Source: Clostridia bacterium
Lineage (GTDB): Bacteria > Bacillota > Clostridia > Oscillospirales > CAG-272
Reading direction: 5' to 3'
Length of the DNA stretch: 56,411 nt
Assembly (NCBI GenBank): GCA_017407225.1
Contig: JAFQWY010000116.1
Location: 1-56,411, forward strand
Shown here: in pieces, positions 3,632 to 43,398 of the stretch
How positions within the stretch are numbered: the first letter of the stretch is position 1
How the letters are laid out: each line of letters starts with the position of its first letter
Translations under genes and position numbers: made by a program
Notes under the pieces: generated by a model
Told to the model about the DNA's origin: nothing
Database searches by the model: none
What the model saw: the letters and a program-made list of their open reading frames with translations, nothing else

Positions 3632-3704
3632 GCTAATATGGCTCAGTTGGTAGAGCACATCCTTGGTAAGGATGAGGTCCCCGGTTCGAATCCGGGTATT
3701 AGCT
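3632..3704 (+). tRNA. tRNA-Thr(GGT), copy 1
   Basis: This 73-nt cloverleaf has the acceptor arms GCTAATA/TATTAGC. The anticodon arm CATCC-TTGGTAA-GGATG gives anticodon GGT (Thr, ACC/ACT codons), and the T arm is CCCGG-TTCGAAT-CCGGG. CCA is not encoded. A short hairpin leader (GTCGG...CCGAC, 3601-3619) precedes it and an intrinsic terminator follows. Confidence 0.95.
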
Positions 3705-3880: not shown

Positions 3881-3953
3881 GCTAATATGGCTCAGTTGGT
3901 AGAGCACATCCTTGGTAAGGATGAGGTCCCCGGTTCGAATCCGGGTATTAGCT
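3881..3953 (+). tRNA. tRNA-Thr(GGT), copy 2
   Basis: The 73-nt sequence is identical to the tRNA at 3632, with the same GGT anticodon. It lies inside a 150-bp duplicated block (3599-3748 and 3848-3997) that also carries the leader hairpin and the terminator. Only two differences are visible between the blocks: the base before the tRNA and one base in the terminator stem. Confidence 0.95.
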
Positions 3954-20712: not shown

Positions 20713-23451
20713 ATGAAGAAAAAATTTTTATCCCTCGTGTCTCTGATGCTGGCAGTGGTTATGATTTTCCCTGCTGTCGTATCTGCGACCGAAACCACTG
20801 CAGATCATGTGATTTATTACGACGGCGAAAAACTGAATACCGTTCAGCTCACCATTGAAGGCGAAGGCGAAAAAGTCTGGAAATCCGACGATACCTCCAA
20901 GGCTGAGGTTGACAATACCGGGCTTGTAAAGGCAAAAGCTGCCGGTGAAGTATGGATCAGAGCATATGATTCCTCTATGGAAAATCAGCTCGGTTCCTGG
21001 AAAATCAAGGTAGTAGGCCGCTCCTGCACCAGTATTGCTGTGGATTATTCCAAGGCAAAAGTTGAGTACCACAGCGGCGAAAAGTTTGATACCAAGGATA
21101 TGATCGTCACTGCAACCTATGACAACGGTGACACCAAGATTCTGTCCTCCTCCGAATATACCTATGCTCCCGCAGGTGCGCTGAAGGTTGCCGATGAAAA
21201 GATCACCGTAACTTATCAGGAAAAGACTGCGGATGTGCCTGTAACCGTCAAGGAAGTTCTGCCCACCAAGGTTGAAATTGTCCGTCCCCTGAACCGTTCT
21301 TTCACAGAAGGCGATAAGATTTCCGATGTTGAAATCAAAGTTACCTACACTGACGGTTCCACTGCAACTCTGACCTCCGGTTTTGATCAGATTCCCTCCG
21401 CTACCACTGCGCTGACCACCGATATCACCAAGCTCGAAGTTTCCTATAAGGGAATTCCCGCAAGCATTACGATTGAAGTTAAGGCTAAGTCCACCACCGG
21501 CGGCACTACCGGCGGCACCACCGGCGATACCACTACCGGTACCATCAAGTACGAACCCGCCGATGCGATTCCGATGGTTTACGAAGTAGGCGAAAAGCTC
21601 GACCTTTCCAAGGTTACCAAGTTCAGCCTCATAAAGACCGACGGTACTGCTGTTTCCAGCGTGTCCTCCAGCACCATCAAGACCGCTCTGGAAGGCAAGC
21701 TGACTCCTTTCGCCAATGTAACCAATGCTGTCGACGTTACACTGACCGTTACCATTGGCTCCGATAAGTATGCTCTCGTACTTACCGATATCAAGGTCAC
21801 CGAAAAGACCGTTGACCCCAACATCGACGACAAAGACGGTCCTTACGAAATCCGCGACGTGGAAATGAAGAAGGACAAGTACGACATCGGCTACGAAATC
21901 TCTCTCGACGACATCAAGACCGTTGAAGTAAAGTGGACCAAGAACGGCACCGCTTACGACATCGCGGGTGAAAACCTGGGTAACTATGCTGCAGATCCCA
22001 CCATTGAGGTTCTCGACAAGGACGGCAATACCAAGCTCAAGGCATATCGCAACATTATTCAGGGTGAAGAAGTTCTTACCGACCGTTACGGCGACCAGTA
22101 CGTTCAGCTCCTCCTCACCTTCGGCGATGAAGAATACGAATTCGATATTGGAGTTTCGCCACATTCTCATGATTACAGCATCTTTGTTGAAACAGTCGCT
22201 CCCACTTGCACAGAATCCGGTTATGACCTGTATAAGTGTTCGCTGTGTTCCGCGACGCAAAAGACAAACCTGACTCCTCCCCATGGGCACAACCTTTTTC
22301 TGATCGAGCGGGTTCCCGCATTATGTGAAAAAGGGGCATACACTTTATCAAAATGCCTGCTTTGTGAAGAAGAGGTGCGGCGCTACACGGGAAAAGCCCT
22401 CGGTCATGATTACGGCGAATGGTCAGTAACCACTGAACCCGGATTTGATACCGAAGGTCAGAAAGAAAGAAGCTGTTCCCGCTGTGAAAAGACAGAAACA
22501 GTCATACTTCATCCGCTCAATGCTGCCCACACCTATAGGATTACTGTAGTTGCGGCAACCTGTACCGAAAAGGGATATGTGAATTATTCCTGCACAGGTT
22601 GTGACCATGAGTACAACGACAAATATACGGTTGCTCTGGGTCATGTAATGGTAAACGACACCAGATCGGCCACTTGCGTAAGTGAAGGTTATGAAGGTAT
22701 GGTCTGTGAGGAATGCGGTTATATGGAAACCACATCCACAACGCCCGCGCTCGGTCACAACTTTGTCGTCATCTCCACTGTTGAGGCGGTAAGCTGTGTC
22801 AGTGCCGGCTACGACAATCTTGAATGCACCCGGTGCAAAGAGCTGACCGTCGGCAATATCGTCACCGTCCCCCATACCGCTACCGCGTGGGTAATCGACG
22901 AACCTGCAACCGAAACATACGAGGGCAGTATGCACATGGACTGTGCGGTATGCTTCAACACCTACGACCGACGTCCGGTGCCCCGTCTGATTCCCTCTGA
23001 AGAGTCCGGCTATGTGGTTGAAGGTACATGGCTGAAGAATGTTCCTGCAGATATCACTGCCGCAGAACTGATCGAAGCATTTGCACCGGAAATCGGTGAA
23101 GTGAAGATTTACTCGGCAGACGGAAAGGAACTCACAGGCAAACAGTATGTCACTGCAGGCTGTGAAGTACGGCTGGTACAGGATGATGTAGTTTTCGACC
23201 GTCTTGTGGTGGCTGAAAATGAAGCTGCCGGAGGACGTACCATTACCGGAAGAATCACCAGTTACGAAGACAATACCGCCGCCGTGACGGTTGAGCTTTA
23301 CCGGGACGGTGAAACCACAGTTTATCGTTCTGATACAGTATGCGGAAACGATACGACCTACACCCTCACAAATGTGATGCCCGGCACCTATCAGCTGAAG
23401 GTTTCCAAGGCAAATCATGTTATGCGGGTGTATCAGATCACGGTAGAGTAA
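20713..23451 (+). CDS. Secreted surface protein: Ig-like domains, Cys-repeat array, carboxypeptidase-like module
   Basis: The product is 912 residues with a signal peptide (about 1-26, ending VVSA). Residues about 30-190 contain bacterial Ig-like modules (SKAEVDNTGLVKAKAAGEVW is the Big_2 pattern). Residues about 190-470 hold further beta modules and a TTGGTTGG linker. Residues about 480-760 form an array of about six repeats of roughly 45 residues with the pattern C-x-E-x-G-Y ... C-x-x-C ... L-G-H. The C-terminus (about 845-912) is a carboxypeptidase-regulatory-like module (TITGRITSYEDN, GTYQLKVSK). No sortase motif, SLH or dockerin follows. Codon use shifts near 22.14 kb, where the Cys repeats begin, suggesting mosaic origin. 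It is probably adhesive or structural; it is the largest cargo gene of the element. Confidence 0.75.
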   Translation: MKKKFLSLVSLMLAVVMIFPAVVSATETTADHVIYYDGEKLNTVQLTIEGEGEKVWKSDDTSKAEVDNTGLVKAKAAGEVWIRAYDSSMENQLGSWKIKVVGRSCTSIAVDYSKAKVEYHSGEKFDTKDMIVTATYDNGDTKILSSSEYTYAPAGALKVADEKITVTYQEKTADVPVTVKEVLPTKVEIVRPLNRSFTEGDKISDVEIKVTYTDGSTATLTSGFDQIPSATTALTTDITKLEVSYKGIPASITIEVKAKSTTGGTTGGTTGDTTTGTIKYEPADAIPMVYEVGEKLDLSKVTKFSLIKTDGTAVSSVSSSTIKTALEGKLTPFANVTNAVDVTLTVTIGSDKYALVLTDIKVTEKTVDPNIDDKDGPYEIRDVEMKKDKYDIGYEISLDDIKTVEVKWTKNGTAYDIAGENLGNYAADPTIEVLDKDGNTKLKAYRNIIQGEEVLTDRYGDQYVQLLLTFGDEEYEFDIGVSPHSHDYSIFVETVAPTCTESGYDLYKCSLCSATQKTNLTPPHGHNLFLIERVPALCEKGAYTLSKCLLCEEEVRRYTGKALGHDYGEWSVTTEPGFDTEGQKERSCSRCEKTETVILHPLNAAHTYRITVVAATCTEKGYVNYSCTGCDHEYNDKYTVALGHVMVNDTRSATCVSEGYEGMVCEECGYMETTSTTPALGHNFVVISTVEAVSCVSAGYDNLECTRCKELTVGNIVTVPHTATAWVIDEPATETYEGSMHMDCAVCFNTYDRRPVPRLIPSEESGYVVEGTWLKNVPADITAAELIEAFAPEIGEVKIYSADGKELTGKQYVTAGCEVRLVQDDVVFDRLVVAENEAAGGRTITGRITSYEDNTAAVTVELYRDGETTVYRSDTVCGNDTTYTLTNVMPGTYQLKVSKANHVMRVYQITVE

Positions 23452-23527
23452 CAGATTATAACAAAAATAAAGATTGTATGAAAGTTATAACAACTGTAAA
23501 ATCTACGGTTGAGCAATGAACTCAATA

Positions 23528-33476: not shown

Positions 33477-34520
33477 TCACTCCCGGAGCAGTCCGGGGAC
33501 TGTGCTGCCCATTGCGGTATCGATGTACGTCCGCAGACTGCTCAGATAGTTGGCGTTGATCAGGTAATAAATTTTCTTTCCGTCGTGCATGAGGAGGAGC
33601 ATTTTCTGTTTTTCCATCATGTTGAGATGATACAGCGTGCTGTTGTTTTTCAGCCCCAGTTCTCTGGCGATTTCGGCACAGTACATCGGTTTTTTACGGA
33701 GCATATCCAGAATCTTCAGTCTGGTTTCGTCGTACAGGATTCTGCCCAGTTCATACAGATCGATTTCGATTTCCGTGAAATCCCGGATAACTTCATCGCC
33801 GTCGATCCCGAGATACACAAGATAAGCCCCGTCCCGGGTTTCACCGTAGGCGGAACAGGCATGAAGCACGCAGCAGGTGTGACAGATCGGATCGTATTTC
33901 CGGATGTCCTGCATCAGCATCCTGCCCAGTGCCGTGATTTTTTCATCATTGAACCGAGAAATCAGCATATGAATGCGGTCCCCGTTCAGACGGTGAAGAT
34001 CCTCACAGATCTGCTGGGCCTTCCGCAGTTCACGGATGATCAGATCAATCTCATTCTGACCGTCAAAGAGGAAGCTGATCATGTGCAGCTGAACATCGGC
34101 AGGAAGATCCGAATTCAGAACAGCTTCCCGGATCCGGGCAAATTCCGAAAAATCCATGTGTTCGGGACAGTCCCCCGGAATGTAATTCCGGTAAATAAAC
34201 CGCTTCAGCCGGTCGGTATTGTACAGGGATTCATAGAACCTCTCAATCAGACCGTCATGCATATAATCGAATTCCTCCAGAAAAAAACGCATATAGGCAA
34301 GCAGCCCTGTTCTGATCTGCAGATCGTTGCTGCTGTAGAACAGGGGAAGAAGCTTGTCCGACACATCCTTCAGCTGTTCCATCACCTGCCGGCAGATTTT
34401 TGTGTTTTCAGAGTCATCGGGAGATTGGGCAAATGCCCGCTCACCGTTGAACCGCAGCTTCATGGCGAACATCATGTCGTGCAGAATTCCCGGTTCCCTG
34501 AGATAAATGCAGTTGCTCAA
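33477..34520 (-). CDS. ArsR-type winged-helix regulator with large N-terminal domain
   Basis: The product is 347 residues. The N-terminal 245 residues are helical and unassigned, with a Cys-rich spot (CHTCCVLHAC). The C-terminal 85 residues are a winged helix of the ArsR type: YDETRLKILDMLRKKPMYCA, then EIARELGLKNNSTLYHLNMM and a wing KKIYYLIN. Such proteins with an N-terminal sensor and C-terminal ArsR domain are common in Clostridia. It lies between the MoxR cluster and the cohesin operon and might control either. Confidence 0.82.
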   Translation of the reverse strand: MSNCIYLREPGILHDMMFAMKLRFNGERAFAQSPDDSENTKICRQVMEQLKDVSDKLLPLFYSSNDLQIRTGLLAYMRFFLEEFDYMHDGLIERFYESLYNTDRLKRFIYRNYIPGDCPEHMDFSEFARIREAVLNSDLPADVQLHMISFLFDGQNEIDLIIRELRKAQQICEDLHRLNGDRIHMLISRFNDEKITALGRMLMQDIRKYDPICHTCCVLHACSAYGETRDGAYLVYLGIDGDEVIRDFTEIEIDLYELGRILYDETRLKILDMLRKKPMYCAEIARELGLKNNSTLYHLNMMEKQKMLLLMHDGKKIYYLINANYLSSLRTYIDTAMGSTVPGLLRE

Positions 34521-34584
34521 AGCGTACTTCCTTTCCGTGAAAGCTCCGTGTATATTCTATGACTGATGGAACTGATTTTTTCTT

Positions 34585-34613
34585 ATTATACTATGGAAAC
34601 CCGATGATTGCAA
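34585..34613 (-). promoter_or_regulatory. Promoter of the ArsR-type gene
   Basis: Minus strand TTGCAA (34608-34613), 17 bp, TATAAT (34585-34590). Confidence 0.75.
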
Positions 34614-34658
34614 TAGAATCCGAAAAATCCGCACGTTCTCTGCGGTGCTTCACCGAGC

Positions 34659-34687
34659 TTGACATCGGAGTGCACAGGTGATATAAT
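34659..34687 (+). promoter_or_regulatory. Promoter of the cohesin/dockerin operon
   Basis: TTGACA (34659-34664), 17 bp, TATAAT (34682-34687). An untranslated leader of about 110 bases follows, with some pairing potential (ACGAT/ATCGT) and a T6 at 34774; no known riboswitch is recognised. Confidence 0.8.
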
Positions 34688-34805
34688 TAACACATATTAT
34701 AAATTTTGATAGAAACTGACGATGGCTGCGGCCGGCAAGCGGTAAATATCGTGATCCGATCTCCGCGTTGTCGGGCGTTTTTTGATGATATATAAGGAGG
34801 CGGCA

Positions 34806-36155
34806 ATGAAAAAACTCTTCACGGCAGTGCTGATGCTGATACTGTTTGCTCTGCCGGCGTATGCTTCCGGTGCCGAGATTACTGTGGAAATCCCGAACAG
34901 GGGTGCACTGATGGAAGAGCAGTATTATGTGACGGTATCCGTCGCGGACAATCCGGGGTTTGCCTCTCTCCAGCTGGAGCTGTTTTACGATGCCGATGTC
35001 ATGGACTGTGTTCAGGTAAGACCGGGGGAAGTCGTTTGCGGGATGCTGAGCGATACGAATCCCCATGCAGGAGGAGCAAAAACCAGTGCGATTCTCTCGG
35101 TGGCCGGTTTCAGCGATACGGAAAAGAACGGCACACTGGTCACATTCATATTTGAAGCTCCCGGCTCCGGTGATCCGGACTTTGAGGTTTCTCTCACGGA
35201 AATCCGGAACAGCTCCGGGAAAAATGTCGTCTGCAGACTGAATGTTGTGAATGAATACGGCAGTACGGCGGAACTCCCAAATGATAAAGAAGACGGAAAC
35301 AAAACGGAAGACGGCCGGGAACAGGAGAAAACGGAAGACTCCGAAATCAAAACGGAAGTCAGTGTTGAAGTGGAAACGGATGACCGGGATGACGAAGAAG
35401 AGAACCGGCACAACAGAGATGATCGGGATGACCGCAAGGAGCCCGATGACCGCGACGACCGCGACGACCGGGAAGAAGACAGGGAAACGGTCGGCGATTG
35501 GTACGGGGAGCCTGAAATTGTCCCGGATGATCCGACTCCCTCCGATCCGCTGGAAGGTCTTCCGGATGCATTCCGGGATGAGATGATGAAGCCCGTCGGC
35601 GGCTTTGCGGATGTGAATGCCGGGCATTGGGCCTCGGACCTCATCACGGAAGCGGCGTCGCGCGGCGTCATCAGCGGCTATCCCGACGGAACCTTTCATC
35701 CGGACAGAACCATGAACCGGGCAGAATTTGTGACGGTGCTCTGGAACATGGCCGGAAAACCGGACAGCAATGCGCCTCTGCCGTTCAGTGATGTGAAGGA
35801 AGACGACTGGTTCCGGACTCAGGCGGCATGGGCCTATGAAACCGGCTGCATCAACGGTGTCACGGAGAGCGAATTCCGTCCGTACGGAACCGTTACCCGG
35901 GTGCAGGCGGCGGTGATTCTCTACCGATACATCGGAAGTCCCGGCGGAAGCTACCGTCTGGATTTCTTCGCAGATCAGGACGAAATCCCGTCCTACGCAC
36001 TGGATGCGGTGCAGTGGGCACTCTCGGCCGGGGTTCTGACCGGTGTGGATGACACCCACCTGAAACCGCTTTCATATGCGACACGCGCCCAGCTTTCCGC
36101 GATGACTGTCCGATACATCAGCTATGTACAGTATGTGCGGTACCTGCAGTCATGA
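34806..36155 (+). CDS. Cell-surface anchor: cohesin domain + charged linker + three SLH domains
   Basis: The product is 449 residues. ATG follows AAGGAGG. Order: signal peptide (about 1-22); a cohesin-like domain (about 23-150; EITVEIPNRGAL, LQLELFYDADVMDC, and NGTLVTFIFEAP at the end); a linker of about 100 residues extremely rich in Asp/Arg/Glu (DDRDDRDDREED); and three SLH domains (about 265-450; GFADVNAGHWASDLI with GYPDGTFHPDRTMNRAEFV, then two more). SLH domains bind secondary cell-wall polymers and cohesins bind dockerins, so this has the layout of an anchoring scaffoldin with a single receptor. The next two genes of the operon end in dockerin-like modules, its probable ligands (inference). 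Confidence 0.85.
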   Translation: MKKLFTAVLMLILFALPAYASGAEITVEIPNRGALMEEQYYVTVSVADNPGFASLQLELFYDADVMDCVQVRPGEVVCGMLSDTNPHAGGAKTSAILSVAGFSDTEKNGTLVTFIFEAPGSGDPDFEVSLTEIRNSSGKNVVCRLNVVNEYGSTAELPNDKEDGNKTEDGREQEKTEDSEIKTEVSVEVETDDRDDEEENRHNRDDRDDRKEPDDRDDRDDREEDRETVGDWYGEPEIVPDDPTPSDPLEGLPDAFRDEMMKPVGGFADVNAGHWASDLITEAASRGVISGYPDGTFHPDRTMNRAEFVTVLWNMAGKPDSNAPLPFSDVKEDDWFRTQAAWAYETGCINGVTESEFRPYGTVTRVQAAVILYRYIGSPGGSYRLDFFADQDEIPSYALDAVQWALSAGVLTGVDDTHLKPLSYATRAQLSAMTVRYISYVQYVRYLQS

Positions 36156-36186
36156 ATACCGCAGAATTTTCCAAGGAGATATTGTT

Positions 36187-39100
36187 ATGAAGAAATTACT
36201 CAGTCTGATTCTTGCGGGCTGTCTGCTGGCGGCAGGCATTGTCCCTGCATATTCCCAACCTGTTTCCGTGCCTCGGAACGATGCCGGGGACGTACAGGCA
36301 GAGTATGTACAGGGAACCTTGCTGTTCGCACTGCCGGAAGAGGAGATTCTGACCGGTCTGACGGACGATCTGGCCGGACTCGGTCTCGGTGAGATTGAAC
36401 CGCTGTTTACCGAAAACGGTGAAGCGGTCGGAATCGGCGGCAGGGATGAAATCTGGTACAGAGCCCGTGTAAGCGGTGACGTACCTGCGGCCGTACAGGC
36501 TGTATCCGAACTGGAGGGTGTTGTCTGCGCGGAGCCGGAGTATATTTATACCTCCGATCAGGCAGGCGTTCCCAGCGAAATCGAATGCGGCAGGGACTGG
36601 CCACACGACCGGCTTCACAAGCATGACGGCGGCTACTGGTGGTCGGAGGATCCCTCCTTCGGTCACAGCTATGCACCGGGGGAAGGTACTGTGGTTGCGG
36701 TCATTGACACCGGTGTGGATTACCTTCACGAAGACCTGAAGGCCAATATGTGGGTCAACTATGCGGAAATTGACGGTACTGCCGGTGTGGACGACGACGG
36801 AAACGGCTGCATCGACGATATTCACGGTGTGAACGTAACCGCAGGCGGAGCTGCTGCCGGAAATCCCATGGATGACAACGGTCATGGTACCCATGTGGCA
36901 GGTATTATCGCAATGTCCGCCAATGAGAAGGGCGGCGTGGGTCTGGCATACGGGGCTGAGATCATGGCAATCAAAGCCGGGCAGTCCACGGGGACATTTG
37001 CATCCGCTGATATTGCCAGGGCAATCAATTATGCGGTCATGATGGGCGCGGATGTCATCAATATGTCCTTCGGCGGCTCCGGCAAATCCTACCTGATCGA
37101 GACCGCACTGGAAACGGCATTTACCACCTGTGTTCTTGTGGCATCCGCAGGCAATGACGGAATTCCCACAACGGATGCTCCCCCGGAGCTTTATCCCAGG
37201 CGTGTGGATATCTATCCGGCAGGATACAGCTATGTTCTCGGTGTCATGGCAGTTGATGAATCCGGCAGCCTTGCATCCTTTTCCAACTGGGATTATGAAC
37301 CCGGTGCAAACTGCGAATACGAAATGACCGCACCCGGTGTGGGAATTTACTCCGCTCTTCCGGGCAACCGTTATGCACTCTGGAACGGTACCTCCATGGC
37401 GGCACCCTATGTTTCGGCGGCAGCGGCAATCCTCCGCAGTCACTTCACGGATAAGGATATGTATTCCTCCCGGTTTATTATGGGTCAGCTTTGCTCCGCA
37501 ACGGAAGACAGAACCGAGTTTTATGCACCCATGGGTGAGTATTATCTCTATCCCGCACTGAATGTTTACGACAGTATTTCCCTGCTTCCGAAGCCCGGTC
37601 TGTTTGTGAAGGAAACCTTCCTCCTGGACAACGCGGACATTGCGGAAATCAACGATGGGGACGCCATCATTGATGCCGGTGAAACCGTTGACCTCGGGAT
37701 CCTCGTGCGCAACCAGTGGGGGCTTACCGGAGAAACTACCGTAACGGCGGATGCGGTATCCATCGGCGGCGTGGCGAACCCGTATATTGATTTCATCACA
37801 GACGAAATCACTCTTGATCCCGCCGGTACCTTCCAGGAATCCGACAACGGATTTGTCTGCAATGACAGCTATCTGGAATCCGTCGGCAATCCCATCCGGT
37901 TTGCTGTGGCGGAGAACTGTCCCAACGACGCGGAAATCTGCATCAACCTGACCGTGACCACCACAAACGGCGCGGACGAAAACGATGATGCGGTTTATAC
38001 TGCCGCCGCTAAACACACCTTCCGCGTGCAGGCCGGCCGTGGTGTCCGGGGCACCATCGATGAAGACACCACATGGACGAAGGATTTTCTGTGGATTATC
38101 GAAAACTCGGTCTACATCCCCGAAGGCGTCACTCTGACCGTGGAACCGGGCACGCAGGTGCAGTTCTATTCCTCGGATTACGAAGACGCATACGGCGGAA
38201 AGACAATTGCGAAGATTGTCAACGAAGGCACGCTGAACATGATCGGTACGGAGGACGAACCCATTGAGCTGTTCCCGGGCAGGGAGTTTGAAGAATATGT
38301 TGTGGAAATCAGCGGTACCGGCGTGGAAACACTGGAATACTGCAATGTGATCAATCCGTATTTCGGCGGCGGTACTTATGACGAAGCGGTTGATTTTGTG
38401 GACCACTGTTCTCTTACACAGAATACAGAAGGGGTGTATTACAGACGGATAAGTGGTGGTTCGATTTCAGAGAGTCATGTTGAGAGTCAGAGAATTCTCA
38501 GGATTACCAATACACAGCTGATCGGTATCCGTCCTGAAAGAGATTCCATGTTCTATGAATTGCGAACCAATCTTGCTGAGAATTGTCTGTTCGATTCATG
38601 TTTGATCGATTCGATTGAAACCTTCTCCTCATCACTGATTTTTGAGAACAATGCATTGCTGAAAGGAGAGGCGGGAGAACATAGTCCTTTCGATGCAAGT
38701 TCGTACTATAATGCTTCTCCTACTGTTGAGCCGCCTGAGTTAAGAGTTGCTTCCGAGGTATATACGGACGAAGAAACAGGTCGGAAGTATCTCTGTGTGT
38801 ATTTGGCGGCAGAGGGGGAGGAATTTGAATACAATTATCTGAAAGCAGCTGCCCGTGCACTCGGAGGTGATTTGCTGAGCATCAATGATGACAGTGAACT
38901 GGCTTTTCTGACTTCGGTCATTTGGGACGGTAAAAACTATGAATTAGGAATTTACTACAATGACTTCACACGCAGATATGAATGGGCAGACGGAAATACT
39001 TACAGTATTGATATAAAACCTTACAATTCCAATAATCCTAATACATTGGGACATAACTGGCCGTTTGTCGGTTTATCGTTTGCTACCGGAAGTTATCAGG

Positions 39101-41517
39101 CAGATTATAAGATTGACCGCAGCGTTCTTGAGTTCCCGGCTGATGTTGCTGATGAGGATATTCTCAGCTGTTTTGAGGATTTTGATTATAAATCATGGGC
39201 GGCAGAGTATGCAAACCAGTATCGGAACAATGCAATTCTGAATCCTCTGCTGAACACCGCACCTGAACTTTGGACACGGTTTATATCCGAAGAATTCGAC
39301 TATGATTACCTTCCCAACTACATCACCGGCAACTACTGGGGCACGGAAAACGATCGTCTCATCGACAAAATGATCGTCGACGGAAACGACTATGCCGGCA
39401 CCTATCAGGAGCTGGTTTACGAACCCATCCTTACCCTTGAGAGCGGAAGCCTTGAGGACATCTATCCTTTCGTCACCGAAATTCTCCTGGAAGACGAAGA
39501 CGGAAATATCGTTTCCGATGTACAGCCCGGCGAAGCCTATGCGGTTCATGTGTTCTTCAACCGGGATATGAACAGGGAAGTCCAGCCTGCTGTCACCTTC
39601 GGCGGTGCACTTCCCTATACCGACTATTCCGTGCACGGCGATTTCGTGAGCGAGAGGGAATGGGTCGGCACAGCCTTCATTTCTCCCGTCATGAACAGCG
39701 GCACCATGTACTTCAAGACCACGGGCGGCTGTGCTGCGGATGACAGCTGGCTTGTCTGCGGCGACGATGTGCTTCGATTCAGCTTTGAGGTGGAAAGCGT
39801 CGGCGTGCTGGCAATGCTCCTGAACGCGGAAGGCGGCACCAATAAAGTCACCCTCAGCTGGGCGCAGAACGACTACGAAGTCCTCGGCGGCTACAATCTG
39901 TACCGATCCACCTCCGAAGACAGCGGCTTTGCGAAGCTGAATACCTCCGTTCTCACCGGAACTTCCTATGAAGACACCGATGTGGAACCCGGTGTGATGT
40001 ACTATTACTATTTCAAAGTGGTCAACACCGAGGGCAACGAGGAAGAAAACACTTCCAATATCGCATCCGCGAAGCCCATTGACAATATCGCCCCCGTGCT
40101 GACCCATTCCGTCATCAAAAAGGCGAAGATGAACACCCGGATCACCGTTTCCGCCGATGCTTCCGACAATATCGCAGTCAGCGGGGTTGTACTGTACTAC
40201 CGTACCGCTGGTGCGGAGAAGTTCAAGTCCGTGGACATGATGAACACGTCGGGCACACGGTATGTGGGAACCATTCCTGCCTCTGCTGTCACTGCGGACG
40301 GTGTGGAATACTATCTGGCCGCCTCCGATGAGGACGGAAATATCAGATACAGCGGCACGGAACAGCTTCCCAACTTCATTGAAGTGGACAGCGCACCTGC
40401 CGTGACCGGTGTAACTCCCCAGCAGCTGAATATTGCGGGAGGTCAGACCGTCACGATTCTCGGCGTGAACTTCAGCGAGGGCATGACGCTGACCCTGGGC
40501 GGCACCGTAATCTCCGAGTACACTCTGGTAAACAGCGGACAGATCACCTTTACCGCACCTGCCATGAAGAGCGGACGGTACGCACTGGTTCTGACCGATG
40601 CCGACGGAAGAACTGCCGCCGCAAAGGAACAGATCGTGTATACCGATGAATCCAGTGTGGCGCAGATTCCCACCGCGATGGAAATGCTCTCCGGAGTGGA
40701 ATATATGATTCCGTTTGTTGCGGCCGCTGACAGCGCGGTGACGGCGGTTCACTTTGAACTGGATCTGCCTTCCGCGTACTTCCGGGATGTCCGGGCGGAA
40801 AAAGCGGATGCTGATGCAAACTTTACGCTGGATTACAATTACAGCGGCAGCCTCCTGCAGGTGAGCTGCATCGGAACCGCCGATATGATCACACAGAACG
40901 CGCTGGTCAATGTTTTCGTTACCCCGATGAGCACGGAAAAAATCAGCCTGCCCGTCAATATGCATGATGTCCGGTTCAACGGTTCGGATGTACACACCGT
41001 CATCAGCGGTACGGCACAGATCACTCCTGTATTCACGCTGGATGCGGAGGTGCGTCTCTGGGCGGACGATGCTCCGCTGGCCGGTGCCGTTGTCAGAGCG
41101 GACGGACGGACGGGAACCACCGGCAATGACGGCAGAGTTTCCCTGACCGTTGTGAACAAGCTTGTGGATGCTGCGGTTTCCTGTACGGTTCCGGTTCCGT
41201 CCGGCACAATCACTGCGTACGATGCTTCCCTCGTTCTGCAGAATTCCGTCGGAAAAATTGAGCTCAACGAATACCAGCTGATTGCCGGGGATGTGACCGG
41301 TGACGGCAGAACGGATGAATACGATGCTTCCGTGATTCTTCAGATGGCTGTCAGAAAAATTTCCGCATTCCCCTGCGGCTGCAGCTGGAGCTTCCTGCCT
41401 GCTTCCGTATCCATGGAAATGGAAGCATCCGGCAATTCGGCAGAATTCACCGCAATCTGCATGGGCGACGTCGACGGTTCGTTTGGGATGGATGAGGAAA
41501 TTGGGGCGACTGAATAA
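36187..41517 (+). CDS. Giant secreted subtilisin-like protease with FN3, IPT, cohesin-like and dockerin modules
   Basis: The product is 1776 residues. ATG 36187 follows AAGGAG. Order: signal peptide (1-24); pro-domain (about 35-120); peptidase S8 domain with D174 (VIDTGVDY), H233 (NGHGTHVAG) and S403 (GTSMAAP); beta-rich and parallel-beta-helix-like region (about 620-860); a stretch resembling a C-type lectin fold (about 870-970; ARALGGDLLSINDDSELAFL, YEWADGNTY); FN3 (about 1205-1300); IPT/TIG (about 1405-1485); cohesin-like (about 1490-1610); a small carboxypeptidase-like module; and a dockerin-like pair (TITAYDASLVLQ and AGDVTGDGRTDEYDASVILQ). A further GDVDGS motif closes it. Residues about 738-1035 are encoded by AT-richer DNA with different codon use. 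It is probably displayed on the cell by the SLH anchor upstream. Confidence 0.88.
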   Translation: MKKLLSLILAGCLLAAGIVPAYSQPVSVPRNDAGDVQAEYVQGTLLFALPEEEILTGLTDDLAGLGLGEIEPLFTENGEAVGIGGRDEIWYRARVSGDVPAAVQAVSELEGVVCAEPEYIYTSDQAGVPSEIECGRDWPHDRLHKHDGGYWWSEDPSFGHSYAPGEGTVVAVIDTGVDYLHEDLKANMWVNYAEIDGTAGVDDDGNGCIDDIHGVNVTAGGAAAGNPMDDNGHGTHVAGIIAMSANEKGGVGLAYGAEIMAIKAGQSTGTFASADIARAINYAVMMGADVINMSFGGSGKSYLIETALETAFTTCVLVASAGNDGIPTTDAPPELYPRRVDIYPAGYSYVLGVMAVDESGSLASFSNWDYEPGANCEYEMTAPGVGIYSALPGNRYALWNGTSMAAPYVSAAAAILRSHFTDKDMYSSRFIMGQLCSATEDRTEFYAPMGEYYLYPALNVYDSISLLPKPGLFVKETFLLDNADIAEINDGDAIIDAGETVDLGILVRNQWGLTGETTVTADAVSIGGVANPYIDFITDEITLDPAGTFQESDNGFVCNDSYLESVGNPIRFAVAENCPNDAEICINLTVTTTNGADENDDAVYTAAAKHTFRVQAGRGVRGTIDEDTTWTKDFLWIIENSVYIPEGVTLTVEPGTQVQFYSSDYEDAYGGKTIAKIVNEGTLNMIGTEDEPIELFPGREFEEYVVEISGTGVETLEYCNVINPYFGGGTYDEAVDFVDHCSLTQNTEGVYYRRISGGSISESHVESQRILRITNTQLIGIRPERDSMFYELRTNLAENCLFDSCLIDSIETFSSSLIFENNALLKGEAGEHSPFDASSYYNASPTVEPPELRVASEVYTDEETGRKYLCVYLAAEGEEFEYNYLKAAARALGGDLLSINDDSELAFLTSVIWDGKNYELGIYYNDFTRRYEWADGNTYSIDIKPYNSNNPNTLGHNWPFVGLSFATGSYQADYKIDRSVLEFPADVADEDILSCFEDFDYKSWAAEYANQYRNNAILNPLLNTAPELWTRFISEEFDYDYLPNYITGNYWGTENDRLIDKMIVDGNDYAGTYQELVYEPILTLESGSLEDIYPFVTEILLEDEDGNIVSDVQPGEAYAVHVFFNRDMNREVQPAVTFGGALPYTDYSVHGDFVSEREWVGTAFISPVMNSGTMYFKTTGGCAADDSWLVCGDDVLRFSFEVESVGVLAMLLNAEGGTNKVTLSWAQNDYEVLGGYNLYRSTSEDSGFAKLNTSVLTGTSYEDTDVEPGVMYYYYFKVVNTEGNEEENTSNIASAKPIDNIAPVLTHSVIKKAKMNTRITVSADASDNIAVSGVVLYYRTAGAEKFKSVDMMNTSGTRYVGTIPASAVTADGVEYYLAASDEDGNIRYSGTEQLPNFIEVDSAPAVTGVTPQQLNIAGGQTVTILGVNFSEGMTLTLGGTVISEYTLVNSGQITFTAPAMKSGRYALVLTDADGRTAAAKEQIVYTDESSVAQIPTAMEMLSGVEYMIPFVAAADSAVTAVHFELDLPSAYFRDVRAEKADADANFTLDYNYSGSLLQVSCIGTADMITQNALVNVFVTPMSTEKISLPVNMHDVRFNGSDVHTVISGTAQITPVFTLDAEVRLWADDAPLAGAVVRADGRTGTTGNDGRVSLTVVNKLVDAAVSCTVPVPSGTITAYDASLVLQNSVGKIELNEYQLIAGDVTGDGRTDEYDASVILQMAVRKISAFPCGCSWSFLPASVSMEMEASGNSAEFTAICMGDVDGSFGMDEEIGATE

Positions 41518-42329
41518 TGATGAAAAAATACCTGATTCTCTTCATGACGATCCTGATCTGTGCGGGCGGAGTTTCCGTAAGGGCACAGGATCCGGAGCAG
41601 ATTCTGATTCCGCCGTGCTGGTACGGGGAAGCATATTCCGTGGACTGCGTCTATTCTGTCAGCGGCGGCGGGATCGATTCCGTGAGCAGTCTGCTGAACG
41701 GCTGTTATTTTGACTGGAACTATCTTTCCGAAGAAAATATTCTTCTTGCGGCAGCCGCATCGGCGGAGCCTCTTCCCGATCCGCTGCAGACGGAGGCATA
41801 TATGTCCGTCACCGCTTCCCCCGGTACGGTTCTGACCCTGCTGTCCCTCCGCATCAACGGCAAAGAGGCAGCTGTCGGACATACTGTCAGCGGCAATGTC
41901 ACATCGTTCGGAACCGATACCGTTACCGTGTGCCTGCTGAAAAACGATGCGGTCATCCATCAGACGGAGGCAAGCGGTGAGTCTTACAGGATTTCCGCCG
42001 TGCTTCCGGGGGAATATGTCCTGCGTGTCAGCAAGAACGGACACCTTCCCTCGGAATATTCCGTCACCGTAAACGGGGCGGATGTTGTGCAGGATGTGAC
42101 CCTCCGTCCGATCGGAGATGCCAACGCCGATTTTCTGGTGAATGCAGACGACGCCTTTCTGATGAAGCGGTTCTTTGCCGGTTATGAGGCTGTGATTGAC
42201 ACCGAAACGGCGGATACCGACAGGGACGGTGCCGTCACCCGTCGCGATGCCATGATTCTTGAGCGGTATCTGGCAGGATGGGAGAGATATTCCCTGCCGT
42301 ACTGCCCCGAAAATGCGCCCGATGCATAA
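41517..42329 (+). CDS. Small secreted cohesin-like / dockerin protein
   Basis: The product is 270 residues. Its start overlaps the protease stop by one base (TAATG). Order: signal peptide (about 1-20); a short cohesin-like domain (about 25-115; LLAAAASAEPL then TVLTLLSLRING, as at a cohesin end); a carboxypeptidase-regulatory-like module (about 120-190; SGNVTSFGTDT, GEYVLRVSKNG); and a dockerin-like pair (about 198-262; GDANADFLVNADDAFLMKRF and DTDRDGAVTRRDAMILERYL). It repeats in miniature the C-terminal architecture of the protease and probably joins the same surface assembly, as adaptor or plug (inference). Confidence 0.8.
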   Translation: MMKKYLILFMTILICAGGVSVRAQDPEQILIPPCWYGEAYSVDCVYSVSGGGIDSVSSLLNGCYFDWNYLSEENILLAAAASAEPLPDPLQTEAYMSVTASPGTVLTLLSLRINGKEAAVGHTVSGNVTSFGTDTVTVCLLKNDAVIHQTEASGESYRISAVLPGEYVLRVSKNGHLPSEYSVTVNGADVVQDVTLRPIGDANADFLVNADDAFLMKRFFAGYEAVIDTETADTDRDGAVTRRDAMILERYLAGWERYSLPYCPENAPDA

Positions 42330-42430
42330 TATACGATCCATTCAAAGATGCAGCAGACCGCATGGATGCCCGGATCCGGACATTCGTGCGGTTTTGTTCG
42401 CGGACAGGGGAGCGCAGGTTCTCGCCGAAC

Positions 42431-42459
42431 TTGACATATGATAGCGATTCTGGTATAAT
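42431..42459 (+). promoter_or_regulatory. Promoter of the DMT transporter gene
   Basis: TTGACA (42431-42436), 17 bp, TATAAT (42454-42459). Confidence 0.85.
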
Positions 42460-42510
42460 ATCCTGCGGCAGTATGCTGTCCATTATTCAATCCTGACCCC
42501 GAGGTATACC

Positions 42511-43398
42511 ATGAATCAAAAGAATTCCGTAAAAGGAATCATTTTCTGCCTCACAGCCGCCGTAGTGTGGGGCTTTGCTTTTGCGGCACAGGCACTGGGA
42601 GCCGACCATCTGGAAGCGTTCACCTTCAACGGTGCTCGGTTCTGGCTGGGAGCGCTGGCGCTGATTCCCGTCTGCCTGATTTTCGAGAAAAACGGACACG
42701 ATGCGAAGAAGACGAAAACCACCGTCATCGCCGGAATCTGTGCGGGCTGTGCGCTGTTTACGGCATCCTGGCTCCAGCAGGTGGGGATTGACCTCACCGA
42801 CTCCGCCGGAAAAGCCGGATTCATCACCGGTCTGTACATGATTATCGTGCCCATCATCGGACTGCTTCTTGGCCGGAAAACCGGAATGCAGAGCTGGATC
42901 GGCGCTCTTCTGGGTGTGTCCGGGCTGTTCTTCATCTGCTTCGATATGTCCTCCGGTCTGACCTTCACGAAAGGTGATATTTTCCTTGTGGCATGCGCGG
43001 TGGTATTTGCCCTGCATATTCTCATCATTGACCGGTTCGGGGACAATATCTACTCCCTGCGCTTCTCCATGACCCAGTTTTTTGCGGCAGCGGTGCTGAA
43101 TACCGTGATGGCACTGCTCTTTGAAGAAATCGCGCTGTCGGGCATCGTGCTGGCCGGGATTCCCATCCTGTACTGCGGCATCATGTCCACGGGAGTGGCC
43201 TACACCTGCCAGACTCTCGGGCAGAAATACAGTGAGCCCACGGCGGCCTCCATCCTGCTGTCCACGGAATCGGTGTTCTCCGCCATCGGCGGTGCGCTGA
43301 TCCTCAACGAGCGGATGCAGCCGCTGGCATATCTGGGATGCGGCCTGATTTTTGCAGGCATCCTGCTGTCCCAGATCCGGTTCAAAACAAAGGCATAA
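42511..43398 (+). CDS. DMT-superfamily (EamA) transporter
   Basis: The product is 295 residues with ten predicted helices in two EamA repeats. Typical features are the opening GIIFCLTAAVVWGFAFAAQ, FNGARFWLGALALIP, and the second repeat ending in PTAASILLSTESVFSAIGGA, LNERMQPLAYLGCGLIFAGI. Members export metabolites such as amino acids or take up small solutes; the substrate cannot be named. It is monocistronic, with its own promoter and terminator. Confidence 0.9.
   Translation: MNQKNSVKGIIFCLTAAVVWGFAFAAQALGADHLEAFTFNGARFWLGALALIPVCLIFEKNGHDAKKTKTTVIAGICAGCALFTASWLQQVGIDLTDSAGKAGFITGLYMIIVPIIGLLLGRKTGMQSWIGALLGVSGLFFICFDMSSGLTFTKGDIFLVACAVVFALHILIIDRFGDNIYSLRFSMTQFFAAAVLNTVMALLFEEIALSGIVLAGIPILYCGIMSTGVAYTCQTLGQKYSEPTAASILLSTESVFSAIGGALILNERMQPLAYLGCGLIFAGILLSQIRFKTKA

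Follow-up and report, generated by a model that had tools for sequence, protein, structure and literature searches.

A conserved Clostridia operon encoding an SLH-cohesin anchor, a subtilase with a dockerin-like module and an accessory dockerin protein

Can a secreted subtilisin-like protease be held on the surface of a Clostridia bacterium by a cohesin encoded next to it, outside any cellulosome? The question is raised by three neighbouring genes in the window, i.e. the whole stretch of 56,411 nucleotides analysed here, and their products are designated below as P1 (the SLH-cohesin anchor), P2 (the subtilase) and P3 (the accessory protein).

The operon and its relatives

All three ORFs lie on the plus strand and encode secreted products (leader peptides were judged by eye), with a gap of 31 nt between P1 and P2 and an overlap of 1 nt between P2 and P3. 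The features discussed are as follows.

34659..34687, plus strand: sigma-70-like promoter, TTGACA-17-TATAAT with TG before the -10 box (12/12 match, consensus only)
34806..36155, plus strand: P1, one cohesin module (about 34875-35265), charged linker and three SLH domains (Pfam, hhalign, orthologues)
36187..41517, plus strand: P2, secreted S8 subtilase of 1776 aa, the C-terminal part of which has fn3/Big/TIG, cohesin-like, X-type and dockerin modules (Pfam, triad, homologues)
36679..37449, plus strand: Peptidase_S8 catalytic domain of P2, residues 165-421 (Pfam, 5.4e-46)
40660..41028, plus strand: candidate cohesin-like module of P2, residues about 1492-1614 (hhalign; position matches that of the G592 cohesins)
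41203..41337, plus strand: core of the P2 dockerin, Dockerin_1 positions 8-52, most of the first calcium half-loop missing (25.3/19.7 bits)
41464..41481, plus strand: half-loop GDVDGS near the C-terminus of P2, residues 1760-1765, which may be the missing half of loop 1 (permutation test)
41517..42329, plus strand: P3, 270 aa, operon-specific N-terminal domain, CarboxypepD_reg-like module and type I dockerin (Pfam, N-domain HMM)
42114..42272, plus strand: dockerin of P3 (46.7 bits in the genome search)

Within 34400-42700 the 12/12 promoter consensus occurs in two places, the one listed above and 42431-42459, which lies 3' of the operon, before the gene of an EamA transporter. Since this other site comes only after the operon, P1, P2 and P3 plausibly form a single transcription unit; a consensus match is not a proof, the scan having returned 13 consensus-like sites against a shuffle mean of 6.9. 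The earlier note had described three nearly abutting genes behind one promoter and an operon devoid of glycoside hydrolases, and both descriptions stand, the latter in the sense that the Pfam tables of P1-P3 contain no GH or CBM families.

The operon is real and conserved. P1, P2 and P3 follow one another in the same order in a Clostridia MAG from goat rectum (L032, in which P3 is cut by the contig end) and in G765 (L162, with a complete P3), i.e., counting the own genome, in three genomes assigned to three families. The goat genome, 93% complete, is G418, taken as the same as G541 (the two agree in hits and sizes, and contig C85 of G418 is L032 reversed). The full-length P2 orthologues are 57-58% identical to the window P2, and one further, more distant homologue (37%) belongs to a fourth genome, G592, where it adjoins an SLH-cohesin gene. 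The row of genes at this locus (L163, G592 4074000-4093000) comprises an adhesin-like gene with a dockerin, the subtilase gene with two cohesins and two dockerins, the SLH-cohesin gene and another gene for a subtilase with a dockerin.

As to the wider distribution, the window's genus was covered by 25 genomes, many of them incomplete; full-length P2 was found in the own genome only, and G010 encodes a 39% homologue of its front half. Six matches to P2 were obtained in 394 genomes of the order at E<=1e-30, that of the own genome being full-length and the five others confined to the catalytic region. The tail of P2 was matched in 37 of 391 class-level genomes, over most of its length in four of them (own, G541, G765 and G592) and partially, mostly in the dockerin, in the other 33. 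Such scattered occurrence could reflect horizontal transfer or loss. No earlier description of the operon was found among the literature matches listed.

Modules of the three proteins

The three SLH domains of P1 are recognized by Pfam at 1.3e-30. Its cohesin is divergent: by hmmscan it scored 22.1 bits, just under the Pfam cut-off of 24.1 (by this method all three orthologues stay below it), and in the genome-wide profile search it reached 24.8 bits, above the cut-off. The module was compared with a reference set of 16 cohesins (the 17 best of 34 matches minus L126, which has stops in its translation; 15 come from sibling genomes and one from the own genome). The alignment of the three P1 orthologues with this set gave an hhalign E-value of 6.6e-9, 19.5 standard deviations above 60 column-shuffled controls, and an HMM built from the 16 cohesins retrieved the window P1 with E 1.5e-6 among 1991 ORFs, many of which are copies in overlapping loci. 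The orthologues in L032 and L162 share 48-51% identity with the window protein in the cohesin. Thus the P1 segment scored as a cohesin and not as something else, and the earlier reading of P1 as a cohesin-like domain on three SLH domains holds. The linker of the window protein (35265-35592) is long and charged, with many Asp and Arg residues, and has no counterpart in the goat and G765 orthologues.

P2 is an S8 subtilase with an intact triad, as had been proposed: D174, H233 and S403 lie within IDTGVDY, GHGTHVAG and GTSMAAP. Among its accessory modules TIG is well supported (Pfam, 7.7e-12), and fn3 and Lectin_C stay below the Pfam cut-off. The cohesin-like module of P2 has no Pfam match in the window protein and was not matched by the HMM from the 16 cohesins. 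By hhalign the three orthologous modules scored 21.7, against a maximum of 18.7 in 60 shuffles; an Ig-like module of P2, taken as a control, reached 23.2 in an alignment of only 28 columns, compared with 110 columns aligned for the cohesin-like module. The latter sits where the collinear G592 homologue has clear Pfam cohesins, to one of which it is 18-20% identical, and it is possible that it represents a diverged cohesin.

The dockerin at the end of P2, also claimed before, was confirmed by 25.3 bits in the genome search, above the cut-off (19.7 by hmmscan, below it), and by 24.2 and 28.5 bits in the orthologues. It does not comprise the two complete calcium loop-helix repeats of a type I dockerin. 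All four homologues lack D/N at positions 1 and 5 of the first loop, and three of them also at position 3, while the second loop keeps D1, D/N5, G6 and D12. A half-loop of the sequence GDVDGS or GDVTGN is present in all four homologues, 87-89 residues past the start of the dockerin core, and in the three operon orthologues it is near the C-terminus of the protein. When this end piece was moved to the front, the scores of the four proteins against a canonical dockerin HMM rose from 19.9-23.8 to 28.2-33.7 bits, and in no protein did any of 200 shuffles of this piece attain the permuted score (the nearest, in the window P2, had 33.3 against 33.7 bits). These values should be read with the following in mind: the four proteins are related and do not make four independent tests; the junction, seven residues ending in the loop aspartate, was set by eye after the sequence had been seen; some gain is expected from any calcium half-loop; and the 30 dockerins from which the HMM was built include that of P3 itself and also L052, which is visibly not a dockerin frame. 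With the junction one residue short, two proteins gained 3.4 and 4.3 bits, more than five of five shuffles in each case. Taken together, this hints at a natural circular permutation of the P2 dockerin; among the literature matches listed, no title or beginning of an abstract mentions circular permutation of dockerins.

P3 bears the dockerin that the earlier note had assigned to it (Dockerin_1, 3e-11), with the two calcium loop-helix repeats of type I; both loops keep D1, D/N3, D5 and D12, and in the first F replaces Gly at position 6. The module before it resembles CarboxypepD_reg (2e-5, yet below the cut-off). The cohesin-like module also attributed to P3 was not borne out, as the N-terminal domain, when aligned with cohesins, scored 9.0 by hhalign, below the shuffle mean of 10.4, and has no Pfam match. 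Among the 1991 ORFs, an HMM of this domain matched copies of the three P3 genes and nothing else. In G765, which encodes the sole complete P3 relative, the N-terminal domain is kept and the dockerin is absent.

Parts of P3 recur elsewhere. Its CarboxypepD_reg-like part was matched at seven other places of the own genome, and the CarboxypepD_reg-like module shared by P3 and the C192 cohesin protein also forms the end (23209-23454) of a Big_2/Big_3 protein encoded in the window at 20713-23451; no dockerin was found beside it in the window ORF. The goat P3 (L032 7834-8709) runs on up to the contig end into CxxTGLTxGxHC repeats, which replace the CarboxypepD_reg-like module of the window P3, and similar repeats are seen in the same window ORF 20713-23451.

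Docking and the choice of partners

Candidate partners were counted genome by genome. The goat genome has one Cohesin match at E<=1, that of P1 (21 bits, below the cut-off), and one Dockerin_1 match above the cut-off, that of P2 (31.3 bits), along with two weaker places (20.8 and 15.6); it is a draft, and as Pfam misses the module of P2 itself, other diverged cohesins could escape. The own genome (92% complete) contains nine dockerin places, namely P2, P3 and seven others (an M6 peptidase, four BspA-type LRR proteins and two more), and two Cohesin places at E<=1, one in P1 and one in the C192 protein, with SLH domains in P1 only. G765 has, at E<=1, five other cohesin and seven other dockerin places. 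In G592 (one contig of 5.5 Mb, contamination estimate 11) Pfam detects three cohesins, two in the P2 homologue and one in the adjacent SLH gene, and seven dockerin places, including that of the second, adjacent subtilase; two weaker matches to the HMM from the 16 cohesins, of 15.9 and 14.7 bits, were obtained in L187. In the genus of the window 21 of 25 genomes have dockerins (E<=0.001) and 16 have cohesins (E<=0.01). The operon had been called self-contained: this fits the goat relative, but not the own genome, where dockerins occur at seven places outside the operon and a cohesin at one.

Specificity was considered from the recognition residues, which we take, following the cellulosome literature, to be those at positions 10, 11, 17, 18 and 22 of each repeat. 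The P2 proteins of the window, goat and G765 genomes have A-Y-L-Q-G in the first repeat and E-Y-L-Q-R in the second, and the G592 homologue has S-Y-L-Q-G and A-M-L-E-D, respectively. The second repeat of P3 reads R-R-E-R-G; R at both 10 and 18 of this repeat occurs in six of the nine own-genome dockerins, including P3, and P2 has neither. Because the recognition residues differ, P2 and P3 probably bind different cohesins. The chaining of P2 and P3 to each other, suggested in the earlier note, is not supported, given a P3 with no demonstrable cohesin, a G765 P3 with no dockerin and the different recognition residues.

The model that we favour, and consider reasonably probable as a whole, is that P1 is a wall receptor, P2 docks on it by its dockerin and P3 is an accessory. 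The three SLH domains would hold P1 on the cell wall with its single cohesin facing outward, and the C-terminal dockerin of the secreted P2 would plug into this cohesin, so that the protease and its accessory modules (C-type-lectin-like region, fn3 and TIG) would be kept on the cell surface. The protease would likely serve the digestion of proteins for nutrition or the processing of surface proteins. P3 would be an accessory with a partner module that differs from species to species, its dockerin in the own genome resembling the other dockerins there and not that of P2. We infer docking, partner choice, anchoring and use from the genes, the modules, their order and their conservation. Docking of P2 on P1 is the simplest reading because the goat genome has one detectable cohesin, in the anchor, beside its only clear dockerin, in the protease; the earlier suggestion that the protease docks on the surface anchor thus gains indirect support from the goat census, as well as from the gene order in three families and the neighbour of the G592 homologue. 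Against it stand the divergence of the P1 cohesin, the alternative partner offered by the cohesin-like module of P2 itself, the further cohesins and dockerins of G765 and the own genome, and the G592 homologue, in which only the first repeat retains the recognition residues. Being atypical, the P2 dockerin may also bind in a manner unlike that of a canonical one.

Instead, the cohesin-like module of P2 might pair with the dockerin of the same molecule, closing the tail, or with that of another molecule, head to tail, giving chains of the protease, with P1 only loosely involved. The two are adjacent in all four P2 homologues, which matters if the former is a cohesin, and in the G592 homologue a single protein bears two cohesins recognized by Pfam together with two dockerins. 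Nevertheless, we regard this as improbable: P1 of the goat genome would be left with no evident partner, and, in contrast to the recognizable cohesin of P1, the P2 module has no Pfam match, little identity to the G592 cohesin and a score below that of the Ig-like control. Slightly more doubtful is that the tail modules of P2 are calcium-stabilised structural spacers which no longer bind, P2 being released and P1 serving something else. The incomplete first calcium loop of the dockerin and the failure of Pfam to recognize the cohesin-like module agree with that, but the dockerin module is 56-72% identical among the three operon orthologues and retains the recognition residues in both repeats, and the gene order with P1 is conserved. 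Least probable of all, P1 would be a general receptor for all dockerins of the own genome (M6 peptidase, BspA-type LRR proteins, P3), with P2 as one of its clients, a reading that draws on the nine dockerin against two Pfam cohesin places and on the association of SLH with the cohesin of P1 only, and that conflicts with the recognition residues of P2, unlike those of P3 and other dockerins, with the goat genome, which keeps the operon and no other dockerin above the cut-off, and with the 92% completeness of the own genome, where a scaffoldin may be missing.

Comparison with known cohesin-dockerin systems

The operon most likely encodes a dedicated pair that docks one protease on the cell surface, plus an accessory third protein. 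It would work like the anchoring part of a cellulosome without being itself a cellulosome: no dockerin-bearing carbohydrate-active enzyme was found, as neither the operon nor the seven other dockerin ORFs of the own genome (three of them cut by contig ends) have a Pfam GH or CBM domain, and no multi-cohesin scaffoldin was detected at E<=1 in this 92% complete genome, the P2 module being beyond the reach of Pfam. Cohesin and dockerin proteins outside cellulosomes occur in Archaeoglobus fulgidus, which the operon resembles in this respect; to our knowledge, those proteins include neither a protease nor an SLH anchor. OlpA and ScaD are examples of SLH-anchoring scaffoldins, and P1 is similar to them in uniting a cohesin and SLH domains in one secreted protein (its signal peptide was judged by eye), while its cohesin is under the Pfam cut-off by hmmscan and its likely partner is encoded by the adjacent gene. 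SLH-anchoring scaffoldins are defined in a 2024 survey, a figure legend of which also lists S8 modules in cohesin-containing proteins of A. mesophilus (PMC11557425).

A close parallel to P2 docked on P1 is the S8 protease of C. thermocellum with a double dockerin (dDoc_0689), the first module of which prefers the cohesin of the cell-bound ScaD, and anchoring of the protease was proposed (PMC12484212). In both cases an anchoring cohesin would retain a dockerin-bearing S8 protease on the cell surface; C. thermocellum, however, is a cellulosome bacterium, whereas here the anchor and the protease share one operon devoid of cellulases. P2 also resembles ScaO/ScaP of Pseudobacteroides (Bacteroides) cellulosolvens and Acetivibrio cellulolyticus, which combine a peptidase, a cohesin and a dockerin (PMC5590126, PMC3413522), the peptidase being named S8 subtilisin-like in a figure legend for A. 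cellulolyticus. The likeness, drawn from their description, consists in a peptidase with a single cohesin (a candidate one in P2) and a single dockerin in one protein; ScaO/ScaP, in turn, are called scaffoldins, have PPC modules and belong to large cellulosome systems. Counting against docking, a dockerin of a two-dockerin peptidase protein of B. cellulosolvens bound none of the cohesins tested (PMC5590126). Peptidases on dockerins are reported in numbers from cellulosome bacteria, their role being described there as experimentally undefined (PMC5590126). Dockerins on peptidases, transglutaminase-like and LRR proteins are known from R. flavefaciens FD-1 (PMC2930009), and the other dockerins of the own genome are similarly borne by non-carbohydrate clients; in R. 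flavefaciens such clients accompany a large set of carbohydrate-active enzymes.

Overall, the operon varies an architecture whose parts are known; its novelty lies in being minimal and free of cellulases and in the possible permutation of the P2 dockerin. That these amount to a minimal, scattered system of one socket and one plug, i.e. a single SLH-borne cohesin dedicated to one subtilase by way of a naturally permuted dockerin, both inherited in a cellulosome-independent operon, is a tentative proposal which we hold rather unlikely in this full form. An anchor, a protease and one accessory gene, retained together in three families, isolate the role of peptidase dockerins in a set small enough to be rebuilt in vitro. 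If the permutation is real, such a dockerin would be structurally unusual and might provide engineers with a new binding pair.

Another arrangement was seen in the sibling genome G014, where contig C320 (3597-36942, L128-L130) encodes in a row a protein with two cohesins and a dockerin, an SLH protein and eight dockerin proteins. Six of the eight were scanned, three being transglutaminase-like LRR and three LRR proteins, with no GH match among these six, and the row appears to be a cellulosome-like cluster with no GH match so far. The cohesin of the SLH protein was not listed by hmmscan and scored 45.2 bits in the genome search. In the window itself, two tRNA genes (3632-3704 and 3881-3953) have equal Rfam scores and starts about 250 bases apart.
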